From: a virus
Direction: 5' to 3' (one strand)
Length of the DNA stretch: 31,980 nucleotides
Virus record (IMG/VR): IMGVR_UViG_3300008113_001033
Location: 1-31,980 of that record
Below the pieces are notes generated by a model. The model was not told the DNA's origin, ran no database searches, and saw only the letters and a list, made by a program, of their open reading frames with translations. A program made the position numbers and the translations under genes. Positions 1,614 to 26,326 of the stretch are shown here, one piece after another; the stretch's first letter is position 1; the number at the start of each line of letters is the position of its first letter.

Positions 1614-2685
1614 TAATAGAATCTTTGCACGTTCTCCATTTATTGTGAGAATCGCAGAAGCATCACAAATAGAAACACAAGTAAAATTATACCTTTGGAA
1701 TGGCACAGGTTCGGCACCTGCATCCCCAACTTATACTTTGAGTAAGTTAATCCCTGCACCTACAGATATAGAAACGCTATACAATATTTCTCCGTATATC
1801 AAAGAGTTTATTTCGCATCAATCTTTTCAGAATAACTATAGTAACTTAAATCAAGTTTTATTTGATGATGACTATTGCAATGTAAAGGTAGATACGTATA
1901 AAAAAGTGACTTCCTCATTTGTCCTTGTTAGCTCTACGACTTACAAAGCGTTTGATGGTTACGGAACTTACACCGAAGGAATGAATCCAGATTTAGGAAA
2001 CGTTCTTTTAGATGAAGGAACTTATTCTTATGAGTATGATTCTTCGGTAGATTTATTATATACACCACTGAAAAGAGCAGGAGCAGTAACTATAAATATA
2101 GAGAGCGGACATAAAGTAAAATACACGGAATTAAATACTGGTAACACATTTACGAATACTTCTATAACTACAGGAATGCGTAATGCTTATAGAGTATATT
2201 TAAATTATTACGACAATGGAAATATAATGCAGGTTTTAGATGGTTCTGATAACGTTCTATGGGAGGCTACATTTAAACCTATTGTAGAATGTAAGTATAC
2301 ACCTGTAGTAATAGACTTCATTAATAAGTATGGTGGATGGCAGCGTGAGTTTTTCTTTAAGGCATCTAAAAACACGGTATCTACAACCAATACTACTTAC
2401 AACTTAATGCAGGATACACTATATAACTACGATATATTAGAAGGACAACGCAAAGTTTTTAACTCAGTAATGTTAGAGACGATACAAGTTAATTCTGACT
2501 GGAGAGACGATAGCTATGCGGAAGTGATTAGGCAGTTAATGATGAGCGAGAGAATCCTTTTAAACAACTCTCCTGTGAAGCTAACCACGAATTCTATGGA
2601 GATGTTCAAGGAGATAAACACGAAGATGATAAACTACCAATTAGACTTTGAATACGCATACGATATAAATAACACAGTATTGTAA
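1606..2685 (+). CDS. Putative tail structural protein, function unknown
   Basis: A 359-residue protein starting at an ATG inside the end of the gp10-like gene; its stop overlaps the ATG of the next gene. The N-terminus (ARSPFIVRI, then KLYLWNG and LSKLIPAP, NISPYIKEFI) looks like a beta-rich virion protein found before the baseplate-like gene in related phages. No signal peptide, membrane segment or catalytic motif is visible. Its place in an unbroken chain of tail genes points to a tail-tip or baseplate component, but I cannot assign a specific role. Confidence 0.5.
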   Translation: MADNRIFARSPFIVRIAEASQIETQVKLYLWNGTGSAPASPTYTLSKLIPAPTDIETLYNISPYIKEFISHQSFQNNYSNLNQVLFDDDYCNVKVDTYKKVTSSFVLVSSTTYKAFDGYGTYTEGMNPDLGNVLLDEGTYSYEYDSSVDLLYTPLKRAGAVTINIESGHKVKYTELNTGNTFTNTSITTGMRNAYRVYLNYYDNGNIMQVLDGSDNVLWEATFKPIVECKYTPVVIDFINKYGGWQREFFFKASKNTVSTTNTTYNLMQDTLYNYDILEGQRKVFNSVMLETIQVNSDWRDDSYAEVIRQLMMSERILLNNSPVKLTTNSMEMFKEINTKMINYQLDFEYAYDINNTVL

Positions 2686-5052: not shown

Positions 5053-6838
5053 TGGCTGAAAAGAAAGTAATAGAACTAGAGGTTAAGAGTGACTCGTTAG
5101 GAAGTCTTAAATCCCAACTAAGAGCAGCGCAGAACGAAGTTAATGACCTTGCTGCAAAGTTTGGTGCAACATCACAGGAAGCGGTAAATGCAGCGAAGAA
5201 AGCTGCTCAATTAAAAGATGCTATTGCAGATGCTAAAGCGTTAACAGATTCATTCAACCCAGATGGAAAATTCAATGCGTTATCTGCTTCTATTGGTGGT
5301 GCGTTAAATGGATTCCAAGCCTTTGAAGGTGCTATGGGTTTAGTAGGTGTAGAATCTGAAGACTTACAGAAAACTTTACTGAAGGTACAGAGTGCTATGG
5401 CACTATCTCAAGGTGTTCAAGGGTTGTTAGAAGCTAAAGATAGCTTTAAGCAATTAGGAGCAGTAGCAGCAGATGCGTTAAAAGTTATTGGGATGACATT
5501 AAAGAGGCTATTAGTGGAGTTAGCGCAGAGCAGGAAGCGTTAAATGCTAAATCACAAAAAGACGTAGACCTACAGAAAGAAAAATTAGAGAGTTTAGATT
5601 CTCAAGATAACATCTTAAAGCTACAAGGACTTACAGAAAAGCAAATACTTCAGCTTAAAATAAAGCAAACAGATGAAGCTATAAAGGCTTATGAGATATC
5701 TATTAAGAATCAGGAACAAACTTTAAAAGCACAGATACAAGCCGAGCAGCGAAACAAAGAGATACTTAAAGGAATACTTCAATTCATTTTAGCACCTATA
5801 AACCTACTCTTAAAAACTGTAGACGAGATAGGCGCATTTTTAGGTAAGGATTGGAACTTGCAAGACCAAGTAATGGATTGGACTGCTTCATTAATCTTTG
5901 ACCCTAAAGAAGTAGAAGAAGAAGGAATGAAAGCTATAGCAGAATCTAAAAAGGCTTTAGCAGAATTAAAGAATCAACAAGCAGGATTTAAATTAGAAAT
6001 ACAAGCTATTGACAAAGCAGCAGCGGATGCACGTAGACAAGCAGCTAAAGAAGCAAACGATAAACGAGTAGCAGCAGAAAAGGAAGCAAATGATAAGCTA
6101 AAAGAACTTGCTGAAGACAAAGCTAAATTTGATTTAGAGCAGATTGAACTTGATGAAATTAGACAAGAACAAGCCTACCAAAGAAAGTTAGATGCAGCAG
6201 CAAAAGCAGCAGAAGAAGAGAAGGCTATGGAGGATGCTTTACGAGCAGAACGATTAGCAGCAGAACAAGCAGATGAAATAAGACAAGAGGAAGCGTGGGC
6301 AAGAGAACAAGAAGGAATAGCTAAACTTCAAGAATTAAAATATGCAGCAGTTCTACAAGGTTTAACTTTAATATCTGACTTGTCCGAAGTATTCGCTAAA
6401 AAAGGAGAGAAACAAGCTAAGAAAGCATTTGAAATACAAAAGGCAGCAAGTATAGCGGCAGCAGTAATCACAACTTACCAGAGTGCGGTTAGTGCGTATC
6501 AATCTCAATTCTTACCATTGCCTGACCCAACATCACCTATTAGAGGTGCTATCGCAGCAGGTATAGCGGTAGCGGCAGGATTAGGAAACGTAGCTAAAAT
6601 AGCATCACAAAAGTTTGAAGGTAGCGGTTCTATTAGTGCTTCAGCAGCACCAAGTGGTGGTGGCGGTGGAGGTGGTGGTGTAATCACTCCTAACTTTAAC
6701 ATAGTAGGAAATGCACAAGCTACAAATCCATTGGCAGGATTAGGTGGGCAACCATTACAAGCCTATGTAGTAAGTGGAGATGTAACGACTGCTCAGTCAT
6801 TAGATAGAAATAGAATCAATTACGCAACGTTTGGATAA
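5052..6838 (+). pseudogene. Disrupted tape measure protein gene (frame change near 5483)
   Basis: The N-terminal frame (5052 to about 5482, MAEKKVIELEVKSDSLGSLK with AQNEVNDLAAKFG) matches the start of Bacteroidota tape measure proteins. It then runs out of frame and stops at 5543. The rest is open in the -1 frame from about 5483: SYWDDIKEAISGVSAEQEAL, a long Ala/Glu/Lys-rich coiled coil, then FEIQKAASIAAAVITTYQSA, a nine-glycine stretch (about 6652-6680) and NRINYATFG at the end. The combined length is about 594 residues, which by the usual 0.15 nm per residue would give a tail of roughly 90 nm. The hydrophobic segment that normally precedes YWDDIK in this family appears to be missing, so a deletion at the junction is likely rather than a single-base indel. 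Confidence 0.7.
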
Positions 6839-22314: not shown

Positions 22315-22551
22315 ATGAGTTACGACAACACGAACACGGCAGTTATTTTTAAGAATAACAAGAAAGAAAACGAGAAGCATCCTGATTACAGAGGGACTAT
22401 AAACGTAGACGGAAGAGAATTAGAAATTAGTCTATGGGTAAAGGATGGAAAAGCAGGTAAGTTCTTTTCGGGTAAGATTCAAGAACCATTTAAAAAGATG
22501 GAGAATGCTACGGATAAGATTAATAATGAAAGTTCTGGTTTACCTTTTTAG
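22315..22551 (+). CDS. Small SSB-like protein with a GLPF C-terminus
   Basis: A 78-residue protein (SYDNTNTAVIFKNNKKENEK, HPDYRGTINVDGRELEISLW, VKDGKAGKFFSGKIQEPF). It resembles small phage proteins with an OB-like core. It ends NNESSGLPF, like the tip of bacterial single-strand-binding proteins that recruits replication partners. The helicase at 23590 ends with a similar tip, so both may dock to the same host or phage partner. Confidence 0.5.
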   Translation: MSYDNTNTAVIFKNNKKENEKHPDYRGTINVDGRELEISLWVKDGKAGKFFSGKIQEPFKKMENATDKINNESSGLPF

Positions 22552-22569
22552 TATGTAAATAAATTTAAT

Positions 22570-22577
22570 TATATTTG
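22570..22577 (+). promoter_or_regulatory. Promoter -7 box (TATATTTG) for the structured RNA
   Basis: TATATTTG with transcription expected to begin at about 22583-22585, exactly at the first base pairs of the structured RNA that follows. No clean TTTG -33 box is seen at the usual distance (only T-rich sequence), so the promoter is likely but not complete. Confidence 0.55.
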
Positions 22578-22582
22578 CTGCA

Positions 22583-22680
22583 AGGTTAGAGTCTCAAACA
22601 TAGTTAACCTAAAGAAGTTATTAAACCCTGATAATGAAGTAGACGTGAGACTCCTACGGATTTATCGGGGTTTGTTATTT
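22583..22680 (+). ncRNA. Structured RNA with two hairpins and complementary loops
   Basis: Hairpin 1: AGGTTA (22583-22588) pairs with TAACCT (22605-22610). Hairpin 2: 22623-22634 pairs with 22662-22673 over 12 base pairs (one G-T pair), followed inside by GTAG (22639-22642) with CTAC (22654-22657). Loop 1 contains GAGTCTCA (22589-22596) and loop 2 contains TGAGACTC (22646-22653), which are perfectly complementary over 8 bases, as in a kissing-loop fold. A T-rich end (TTTGTTATTT) follows hairpin 2, so it could be a free RNA of about 95 nt or the leader of the gene at 22695. It does not fit any riboswitch or ribozyme core I know. Confidence 0.65.
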
Positions 22681-22694
22681 AATAAATTATTATT

Positions 22695-22895
22695 ATGGCA
22701 AAAATTGTTTTAACAAATGGTGTTCTTAATGTAGAGGAATCTTATGATGAGATTTTAAACAAAGAAAGAAAAGGAGATTGGATTGAATTAGTTGAATACA
22801 ATCAAGAAGTAAGAAACAGAAATAAATCAATGGGCTTAGAAGGTGATTACAGACTGTTAGTTAATATTAACCACATTCAATTAATTAAGCTATGA
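22695..22895 (+). CDS. Small early protein (66 aa)
   Basis: A 66-residue protein (AKIVLTNGVLNVEESYDEIL, LVNINHIQLIKL at the end) of a type common in Bacteroidota phages, with no assigned function. It is the first gene downstream of the structured RNA and may be under its control. Four-base overlap with the replication gene. Confidence 0.55.
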   Translation: MAKIVLTNGVLNVEESYDEILNKERKGDWIELVEYNQEVRNRNKSMGLEGDYRLLVNINHIQLIKL

Positions 22896-23593
22896 GCGGA
22901 TGGATTAAGTTACATAGACAAATTAGAAACCATTGGGTTTTTAAAAATGCTAATTATTTTAAGGCTTGGGTTGTAATTATTTCAGAGGTTAATCATCAAT
23001 CTACAAAGGTTATTATTGAAGGAGAATTAATAGAATGTAAAAGAGGACAAAGTATAAATAGTTTATCTACTTGGGTAAGCATTTTAGGTAAGGATTGGAC
23101 AATTCAGAAACTCAGAACATTTTTAAAATTACTTGAAAAAGATGAAATGATTAACACGGAAGGACTACGAAAAACAACACGGCTAACTGTCTGTAATTAC
23201 GATAGTTATCAAAGTGAGCAACAAGGAGACAACAAGCAAACAACAAACAGACAACAAGGAGATAACAAGGAGATAACAACAAACAAGAATGTAAAGAATG
23301 TAAAGAATGAAAAGAATGAAAAGAATATTATACCAAGTATAGAAGAGTTTGTTTCTTATGGTTTGTCTTTAGTTGAAGATGTATCCATAGAAGCGTTAAA
23401 ACTTAAACATCAAAGTTGGTTAGTTAATAATTGGTGTAAGGAGAAGAATGGTAAATTGATTAAAATTGTAAATTGGAAGTCTACTTTAAGTAATACAATT
23501 TCATATTTACCTAAACAACCTAAACAGATAGCTAAATCTGAAGAGCAAATAAGATACGAACACGTTTTAAAACAAATGGAACTAAACAAATGA
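22892..23593 (+). CDS. Replication initiator/replisome organiser-like protein
   Basis: A 233-residue protein starting SGWIKLHRQIRNHWVFKNAN, the typical start of phage replication organisers with a winged-helix N-terminal domain (residues 1-110, with KDWTIQKLRTFLKLLEKDEM). A low-complexity linker follows (QQGDNKQTTNRQQGDNKEIT, then KNVKNVKNEKNEKN). A C-terminal domain resembles the DnaD/helicase-loading part. The helicase gene starts at an ATGA overlap. It likely binds the origin and loads the helicase at 23590; origin repeats may lie within this gene. Confidence 0.6.
   Translation: MSGWIKLHRQIRNHWVFKNANYFKAWVVIISEVNHQSTKVIIEGELIECKRGQSINSLSTWVSILGKDWTIQKLRTFLKLLEKDEMINTEGLRKTTRLTVCNYDSYQSEQQGDNKQTTNRQQGDNKEITTNKNVKNVKNEKNEKNIIPSIEEFVSYGLSLVEDVSIEALKLKHQSWLVNNWCKEKNGKLIKIVNWKSTLSNTISYLPKQPKQIAKSEEQIRYEHVLKQMELNK
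23285..23326 (+). repeat. 9-base tandem repeat inside the replication gene
   Basis: AAGAATGTA twice, AAGAATGAA twice, then AAGAAT: 4.7 units of 9 bases encoding the KNVKNVKNEKNEKN linker. Just upstream are similar CAACAAGGAGA repeats. Unit number may vary between strains; it could also be origin iterons. Confidence 0.7.
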
Positions 23594-24528
23594 TACTATC
23601 AACAGGACATAGCACAAAATATCTAAACGATTATAAGAGCGGTAAGATATCTCAAGGGTTGGGTATAGGATGTGTATTAGATGACTACATTAGATTTAAA
23701 CGTAAGCAGCTAAATATAGTTTTAGGACACGACAACGTAGGTAAATCTTATTGGATGGAATGGTACTTTCTTGCATTGGCTACTAACCACGATTTAAAAA
23801 CAGTTGTTTGGATGGGTGAGAATTCAAGCGGACAAGTAATGCGTGATTTAATACAAATGTATTCAGGTAAACATTTTAAGGATTTAACTTATGATGAGAT
23901 ACGCAAACACGAATCATTTATTGAATACTATTTTAAATTCTTAAGCAATGAAAAACTATACAAGCCAAAAGAAGTTTTAGATATAATTGGTTCTACAGAT
24001 GCAGATATAGGATTTATTGACCCATTTACAGGATTAGATAGAGGAATGCAGCATTCAGATAACTATGAATTTTTAAATACTACAAGACAATTCTGCAATC
24101 AATCTGGAAAGACTTTGTATGTATCAACACATCCTAACTCCGAAAGTGGTAGAAGCGGTATGTTATACGGAGATGATTTTCCTGAATGGAAAGGACATTT
24201 AAAACCACCACTTAAAGCGCACATAGAAGGCGGTAAACCTTTCTTAAATCGATGTGACGATATGTTAATCATTCACAGGTTAGTTAAGCATCCTACAATG
24301 AAATATTCTACAATGATAGACATAGAAAAAATTAAAGATAGAGATACAGGTGGTCAATGTACTGAGTTAGGTATGCCTTTATTATTTGATTTTAATAGTG
24401 GATTAGGATTTAAGATTGGTGGCATTGACCCTATAAAAAGACGAAATAATATAATGAATAATGAAACGCAATCTTTTTACAGAGCATTAGAACATAATAG
24501 TAACTTTGACGATAAACTCCCTTTTTAA
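23590..24528 (+). CDS. RecA-like replicative helicase/ATPase
   Basis: A 312-residue protein with Walker A GHDNVGKS at 46-53 and Walker B IGFIDPF in the middle. YVSTHPNSESGRSGMLYG follows as a sensor-like segment. This is the layout of the RepA/DnaB-like hexameric helicases found in Bacteroidota phages next to the organiser gene. The C-terminus, NFDDKLPF, closely resembles the tip of bacterial SSB (acidic residues then PF). It would unwind DNA at the fork. Confidence 0.7.
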   Translation: MILSTGHSTKYLNDYKSGKISQGLGIGCVLDDYIRFKRKQLNIVLGHDNVGKSYWMEWYFLALATNHDLKTVVWMGENSSGQVMRDLIQMYSGKHFKDLTYDEIRKHESFIEYYFKFLSNEKLYKPKEVLDIIGSTDADIGFIDPFTGLDRGMQHSDNYEFLNTTRQFCNQSGKTLYVSTHPNSESGRSGMLYGDDFPEWKGHLKPPLKAHIEGGKPFLNRCDDMLIIHRLVKHPTMKYSTMIDIEKIKDRDTGGQCTELGMPLLFDFNSGLGFKIGGIDPIKRRNNIMNNETQSFYRALEHNSNFDDKLPF

Positions 24529-25388: not shown

Positions 25389-25661
25389 ATGAACTTATTT
25401 GATGTAATACACGCTAAGACTTCCTTAAATGCGATTATAGGAAGCATCCGACTTTCTCTACACGATTTACGAGAGAAACACGAACACAGAAAGGATTTAA
25501 TAGAAACCTTAGAAAAATACGAAATATGGATGAGTGAAACCAGAGATACTTTAAGTGCTATGGAAGATGAGAACAAGCAGCTAATTAGAAGACTTGCTCA
25601 GTATCATACAGAGTATTTAAAATTGAAGCGAGAAAATAATGAATTAAAAGAAATATTATGA
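25389..25661 (+). CDS. Coiled-coil protein, unknown function
   Basis: I start at the ATG at 25389 (90 residues, NLFDVIHAKTSLNAIIGSIR). The frame is open upstream to 25332 but that lies inside the PAPS-reductase-like gene. The second half is a heptad-rich coiled coil (EDENKQLIRRLAQYHTEYLK). ATGA overlap with the methyltransferase. Function unknown. Confidence 0.5.
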   Translation: MNLFDVIHAKTSLNAIIGSIRLSLHDLREKHEHRKDLIETLEKYEIWMSETRDTLSAMEDENKQLIRRLAQYHTEYLKLKRENNELKEIL

Positions 25662-26326
25662 AGATTTTAAATTTATATGCTTGTTTAGGAGGTAACCGAT
25701 ACAAGTGGGATGAGGTAGCAAATAACTTAGAAATAACTGCCGTAGAACTTGACGCTGAAGCTGCGAGATTATATCAAGAAAGATTCCCAAATGACACAGT
25801 AATAGTTACGGATGCACACCAATACTTATTAGACCATTACAAAGAGTTTGATTTTATTTGGAGTTCACCGCCTTGTCCCACTCATTCAAGAGCAAGATAT
25901 TGGAATAGTTCAAACTACGATACTACAACTGAACCTGTTTATCCGGATATGAAGTTATATGAAGAGATATTATTTTTACAACATTATTATAAACACGGAA
26001 AATTTGTAGTTGAAAATGTAATACCATACTATGAGCCATTAATACACGCACAAAAACGAGGAAGGCATTTGTACTGGACCAACTTTAATTTGCCGAATGA
26101 TTTAAATGATAGAAGATTTGCAATCAGTTCAGCAAAACAAGAGTTAAAAGGTTTATGTGATTTTCATAATTACGACTTTACAAAATATGAAGGCAAACAA
26201 TCTGTTTTAAAAATGGCTCGTAACCTGGTTGACTATGAAGCAGGAAAAACGATACTTGAAACTGCTTTAGGAATAATAAGAAAACAAGATGTTAACCAAG
26301 TATCAATATTTGACTTTGACGTATGA
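25658..26326 (+). CDS. C5-cytosine DNA methyltransferase (small, orphan)
   Basis: A 222-residue protein with motif I NLYACLGGNR, the PC motif WSSPPCPTHSRAR (catalytic Cys73), and ENV at 119-121 (VVENVIPYYEPL). A short recognition part and the C-terminal VLKMARNLVDYEAGKTILE follow. It is smaller than typical C5 enzymes, as in related phage proteins, with no nuclease partner nearby. Such orphan enzymes usually protect phage DNA from host restriction. Target sequence unknown. Confidence 0.75.
   Translation: MKILNLYACLGGNRYKWDEVANNLEITAVELDAEAARLYQERFPNDTVIVTDAHQYLLDHYKEFDFIWSSPPCPTHSRARYWNSSNYDTTTEPVYPDMKLYEEILFLQHYYKHGKFVVENVIPYYEPLIHAQKRGRHLYWTNFNLPNDLNDRRFAISSAKQELKGLCDFHNYDFTKYEGKQSVLKMARNLVDYEAGKTILETALGIIRKQDVNQVSIFDFDV

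Follow-up and report, generated by a model that had tools for sequence, protein, structure and literature searches.

What is the intergenic element that lies between an SSB-like gene and a group of replication genes in a phage sequence of 31,980 nucleotides (the window, that is, the whole stretch of DNA analysed), and does it act on the genes that follow it? A first-pass annotation had proposed at this site a promoter-driven structured RNA, consisting of two hairpins whose loops carry perfectly complementary 8-mers, and the coordinates that it gave for the promoter box, both hairpins and the loop 8-mers all proved correct on reading the sequence (Table 1). Each of the two loop 8-mers, GAGTCTCA and TGAGACTC, occurs once in the window. 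Taken alone, the window offers a weak case for a folded RNA: the MFE of the fold of 22575-22700 has a z-score of -1.5, and 16 of 200 shuffled sequences were equally stable. The element is judged to be real because of the comparative evidence, the single-sequence fold being weak.

Table 1. Features of the RNA element and of the neighbouring genes, in window coordinates.
Feature	Position	Strand	Description	Basis
SSB-like gene, variable upstream neighbour	22315-22551	+	PHROG 18154, E 1.5e-15	
Promoter -7 box	22570-22577	+	TATATTTG, Bacteroidota type	read from sequence
RNA element as a whole	22582 to ~22679	+		window sequence
Hairpin 1	22583-22610	+	AGGTTA 22583-22588 with TAACCT 22605-22610, 6 bp; loop 22589-22604	
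Kissing strand 1	22589-22596	+	GAGTCTCA; abuts 5' strand of stem 1	
Conserved single-stranded linker	22611-22622	+	AAAGAAGTTATT-type	alignment A2
Hairpin 2	22623-22673	+	two stems, 4x4 internal loop, apical loop 22643-22653	
Hairpin 2, lower stem	22623-22634 with 22662-22673	+	AAACCCTGATAA with TTATCGGGGTTT; 12 bp, one G-U	
Hairpin 2, internal loop (4x4)	22635-22638 / 22658-22661	+	TGAA / GGAT; tandem G-A conserved	
Hairpin 2, apical stem	22639-22642 with 22654-22657	+	GTAG with CTAC	sequence
Kissing strand 2	22646-22653	+	TGAGACTC; abuts 3' strand of apical stem	
T-rich tail, intrinsic-terminator-like end of hairpin 2	22671-22679	+	TTTGTTATT	sequence
First gene after the RNA	22695-22895	+	66 aa, no family match	family profile search
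DnaD-like helicase loader (replisome organiser)	22892-23593	+	PHROG 2514, E 1.4e-30	
Replicative helicase-like ATPase	23590-24528	+	PHROGs 18375 and 239	

Many homologues of the element were recovered from uncultured Bacteroidota phage contigs. When viral contigs were scanned with the pattern GAGTCTCA-gap-TGAGACTC, the total lengths among the matches listed clustered at 62-65, and nearly all of the listed matches of that length were the same element, complete with promoter box, hairpins and T-run. Homologues of the gene at 22695-22895 led to three loci in which the shape of the RNA is kept and the kissing pair is CGTCCTAC/GTAGGACG or CGTTCCAC/GTGGAACG, and patterns free of loop letters, fixed at the promoter box and in stem 1 alone, yielded many further alleles, each time with the complement in hairpin 2. 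A covariance model, R1, was built from 46 sequences (alignment A2) on the stems only, leaving out the kissing information; over the loci it gave 119 members that were taken further, and in the window it has one real match, at 22580-22683, with 107 bits. As a guard against selection bias, loci were also retrieved with an alignment of helicase proteins (A6) as the sole query: of the 80 loci kept, 59 were hit by R1 and 58 of these hits are credible; the RNA there mostly precedes the helicase by about 600-1000 nt and shares its strand. Among the helicase-retrieved loci with at least 1 kb of upstream sequence the RNA is present in 58 of 68, two variants found by descriptor included, and this set holds about 30 core strings, a few of which are chance matches in weak hits. 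The uncultured Bacteroidota phages concerned form a large group: among 600 pattern-matched stretches listed, at least 586 encode a relative of the same helicase.

In all 119 R1 members the two loops are complementary over 7 nt or more, although the model knew nothing of kissing. In the canonical members of both sets the exact complement reaches at least 7 nt in 168 of 170 and at least 8 nt in 163 of 170, and it is realised by 39 distinct core strings, some of them one-base extensions of others; 37 of these 39 allele classes attain 7 nt, whereas permutation gives 4.5 on average and 10 at most. In alignment A2, with the kissing pseudoknot included, 91.1% of the cells are paired as compared with 74.2% after shuffling (a value reached by none of 500 shuffles), double changes occur in 23 of 29 pairs, kissing pairs counted, and moving the kissing partner by one column lowers the pairing to about 50%. 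The measure of further pair types is weaker, being reached by 13 of the 500 shuffles. RNAalifold predicts 16 pairs on the same alignment, 13 with double changes, and the columns of stem 1 are 100% paired in the 46 sequences, with double changes in four of five pairs. Compensatory changes, whose absence the first-pass annotation had named as an argument against the RNA, were looked for in every pairing and found in each: in all three stems and in eight of nine columns of the kissing helix. Covariation across dozens of loop alleles thus supports the core proposal, a structured RNA linked to a promoter and held by 8 bp of kissing.

The arrangement of the kissing strands is also constant. Of 119 members, 118 have strand 1 directly against the 5' strand of stem 1 and 117 have strand 2 directly against the 3' strand of the apical stem, and the remaining loop connectors measure 5-9 nt and mostly 2-4 nt in the same members. 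Both stems would therefore leave the 8-bp helix at the same end, a geometry to which an intramolecular fold with a linker of about 12-15 nt appears suited; the sequences fit kissing within one molecule and between two equally well. The tandem G-A in the internal loop of hairpin 2 is kept across members; a kink-turn was considered for this loop and rejected, as there is no 3-nt bulge. A short reading frame through the ATGA of hairpin 2 was not conserved on inspection by eye. In the window, a loop 1 of the GAGTCTCA type doubles as an antisense -7 box, TATGTTTG (22595-22602, minus strand), which is absent from the other loop alleles seen.

At its 5' end the RNA follows a promoter box closely. Among 82 distinct upstream regions, 79 have a strict TAnnTTTG at 4-8 nt ahead of stem 1; part of this set had been retrieved by selecting for TATATTTG itself, the first search being free of this selection. 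The sigma-A box of F. psychrophilum lies at -12 to -5 (PMC9723704), and because this geometry was applied here the predicted start, +1, falls at about 22582. No clear -33 element was seen upstream of the RNA. At the 3' end, a T-run of at least five follows hairpin 2 in 109 of 119 members; it is T5 to T9 in most relatives and interrupted in the window itself (TTTGTTATT). Hairpin 2 has a median MFE of -18.4 kcal/mol as against -7.45 kcal/mol for background windows, a value that 1.25% of the background reaches; a standard terminator scan, which considers loops of 3-8 nt only, does not list it. In about 100 of the 119 members the next ORF, whatever its identity, begins 6-20 nt past the end of the R1 model, and most of the larger distances are probably due to the ORF caller choosing an ATG inside the RNA. 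The start codon usually comes within about 20-30 nt after the T-run, leaving no obvious room for another promoter. Two further TATATTTG sites in the window that look like promoters (18648 and 19938) have short, plain leaders of about 20-25 nt and no such RNA; the structured leader is therefore special to the replication operon.

The genes on both sides of the RNA are almost always on its strand. In nearly all loci it is followed by zero to two small ORFs, a DnaD-like loader (downstream of the RNA in about 95 loci) and the helicase, and the link to replication that had been suggested from the window alone is borne out by this position directly upstream of the DnaD-like/helicase operon. The immediate neighbours vary between loci on either side; SSB-like, DnaA-C-like and ParB-like genes were seen among them, the last two named by eye. 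Within the DnaD-like gene of the window, tandem 11-bp units (CAACAAGGAGA-like, about five copies) form an iteron-like array at 23219-23279, a candidate replication origin. Further downstream, at 25658-26326, a match to C-5 cytosine methylases covers no more of the profile than its N-terminal 80 residues, possibly a sign of a short or split gene.

The RNA usually occurs once per genome, and some phages (L243, L244, L249 and L251) carry two copies, about 1.7 kb apart and of differing alleles (CGTCTGAC and GTCTTCAC), the first before a ParB-like gene. The alleles are exchanged between close relatives: the window and locus L122 are 97-99% identical downstream and 62% in the RNA, and more generally such relatives are 97-100% identical in the DNA just downstream and 62-67% in the RNA, while others share the upstream side instead, so that the RNA allele is tied to neither neighbour.

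Considered together, these sequences have the anatomy of an attenuator leader, with a leader between the promoter and the first gene and an intrinsic-terminator-like hairpin at its end. Because the spacing to the next start codon is tight, our preferred reading, with a probability of about 0.5, is a leader close to its promoter in which termination is conditional, rather than an RNA that is purely free. In this view the replication operon of the phage has a transcript whose opening ~95 nt are the element. Transcription would begin at the TATATTTG promoter and yield, in turn, hairpin 1, the linker and hairpin 2; pairing between the two hairpin loops would fold the RNA into a compact pseudoknot in cis, and hairpin 2 would double as an intrinsic terminator just ahead of the first of the replication genes. 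As the space from the T-run to the start codon is too short for a promoter, the replication genes would need hairpin 2 to be read through or inactive, and they would be made only when the polymerase gets past this terminator. The kissing contact may set whether, or how fast, the terminator hairpin is completed, and the released RNA of about 95 nt could be a by-product or a second actor. The data show the folded structure with its covarying kissing pairs, its place before the operon, and a promoter box and T-run that are conserved; transcription and termination, like the direction and the trigger of the control, are in this proposal what we infer.

A free, trans-acting small RNA of the phage, with its own promoter and terminator and placed before the replication genes by accident, is an unlikely reading, even though the promoter, the structured body of about 95 nt and the T-run are those of a small RNA gene and the alleles move independently of the neighbouring genes, as the window and L122 illustrate. 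If hairpin 2 terminates transcription it necessarily controls the operon a few nucleotides on, and a search of the same contigs for trans targets of the kissing 8-mers showed no enrichment outside the element (5 observed, 10.8 expected). It is quite improbable that the folded nascent RNA instead modifies the polymerase in the manner of the put RNAs, enabling it to pass hairpin 2 and terminators further on. These are known from phage HK022, whose putL and putR lie at or near the start of early transcripts, two hairpins each and at most two per genome; the put RNA measures about 70 nt, has two stem-loops, follows an early promoter and binds RNA polymerase, thereby suppressing termination (as described in PMC9378689). 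Several features recall this system: an early-type transcript that opens with two hairpins, next to a promoter box; the occasional presence of two copies per phage, as for putL and putR in that account (PMC9378689); and the immateriality of the downstream gene. The RNA studied here, however, is longer, comes from phages of another host group and conserves a T-run and a kissing pair, neither of which figures in the account of PMC9378689; the comparison is one of descriptions, and no sequence or family link to put was found.

Kissing could also take place in trans, loop 1 of one copy with loop 2 of another, so that the leader of the replication operon would act as its own antisense: released and nascent leaders would meet through allele-specific loops, termination would rise with the number of genome copies, and phages of the same allele would be incompatible. 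If so, the operon would be shut down as genome copies accumulate and same-allele phages would regulate each other. The two loops are indeed perfect mutual complements, the alleles are diverse and swapped between close relatives, two-copy phages carry different ones, and a minimal variant with fully paired loops of 6-7 nt resembles classic RNA-RNA kissing hairpins; yet the connector lengths suit the cis fold, which is expected to win kinetically, and this arrangement seems to us still more improbable than a put-like one. A role at the level of DNA, as a single-strand origin structure or a recombination boundary, would agree with the adjoining replication genes and the position at mosaic borders, but it is hardly credible given that the many G-U pairs in the stems, the adjoining promoter box and the one-sided T-run point to RNA and that origin-like tandem repeats are found elsewhere, inside the DnaD gene. 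The probability that remains goes to other roles, such as that of a 5' stabiliser.

The leader with conditional termination resembles attenuators and other structured 5' leaders in its succession of promoter, structured leader, terminator-like hairpin and operon within a few nucleotides; it differs from them in the conserved contact between a hairpin and the terminator loop, and no conserved antiterminator pairing was noticed when alignment A2 was inspected by eye. In copy-control systems of the ColE1 and R1 type (RNAI/RNAII, CopA/CopT), kissing loops of 6-8 nt exist in many alleles beside replication genes. The likeness in loop size, allele number and adjoining genes is evident, but there the loops lie on sense and antisense RNAs and here both are on one strand. 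An antisense copy-control RNA of the CopA/RNAI type was rejected, as the conserved promoter box shares its strand with both loops; the Rfam score for CopA is at chance level (13.6 bits, 60 being needed). The STAXI motif (RF01728), a pseudoknot repeated two to three times, is listed for Enterobacteriales near SSB and DNA-handling genes (PMC2864571). It is likewise a pseudoknotted candidate RNA in such surroundings, and was rejected since the window has one two-hairpin unit without tandem repeat and no Rfam match.

The first-pass annotation knew no described family with this layout, and the Rfam search agrees with it: at gathering scores Rfam 15 gave no match in the whole window, and a permissive scan of 22500-22720 gave eight, all far below the cut-off. 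No description of the RNA was found in the literature, our coverage of which is incomplete. In the INPHARED phages, blastn with three alleles returned short chance matches only, and R1 stayed at noise level, 21 bits or less, on five cultured Bacteroidota phages that included the nearest by portal (Nonlabens P12024S, 34%) and by terminase (F. psychrophilum FPSV-S2, 54%). Pattern matches in bacterial genomes were scattered over unrelated taxa, none scoring with R1, and 0 of 198 Bacteroidota genomes had a copy under stricter filters and without a positive control; there is thus no evidence of prophage copies at what appears to be a limited sensitivity. We rate the element as a new RNA family of a known general kind, a structured phage leader or small RNA, whose layout, a hairpin kissing the loop of a terminator hairpin before a replication operon in dozens of alleles, we have not found described.

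The element is a well-supported family of structured RNAs in phages, viruses of Flavobacterium-type bacteria, and probably a switch or brake on their replication genes; it points to RNA-level control of these genes in phages for which little such control has been described. Its dozens of kissing alleles, swaps, two-copy phages, minimal-loop variant and broken-pair chimera amount to a natural experiment. The minimal form of hairpin 1 was seen in seven weak hits (L292, L274, L322, L329, L301, L291 and L326), in which, by eye, its loop pairs with that of hairpin 2 by 6-7 nt, and L283/L285 represent a further variant. The apparent chimera (L281, 801-901) has loop 1 of one allele, GGTCTGAC, and loop 2 of another, GTGAGAGC, so that kissing is broken. 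A natural deletion is found in L176 (2988-3053, minus strand), where the promoter box and hairpin 1 are kept and hairpin 2 is nearly all gone. Finally, L017 carries RNAs at 1790-1893 (plus strand) and 6720-6823 (minus strand), each before its own DnaD/helicase genes, as could result from duplication of the module or from a chimeric assembly.
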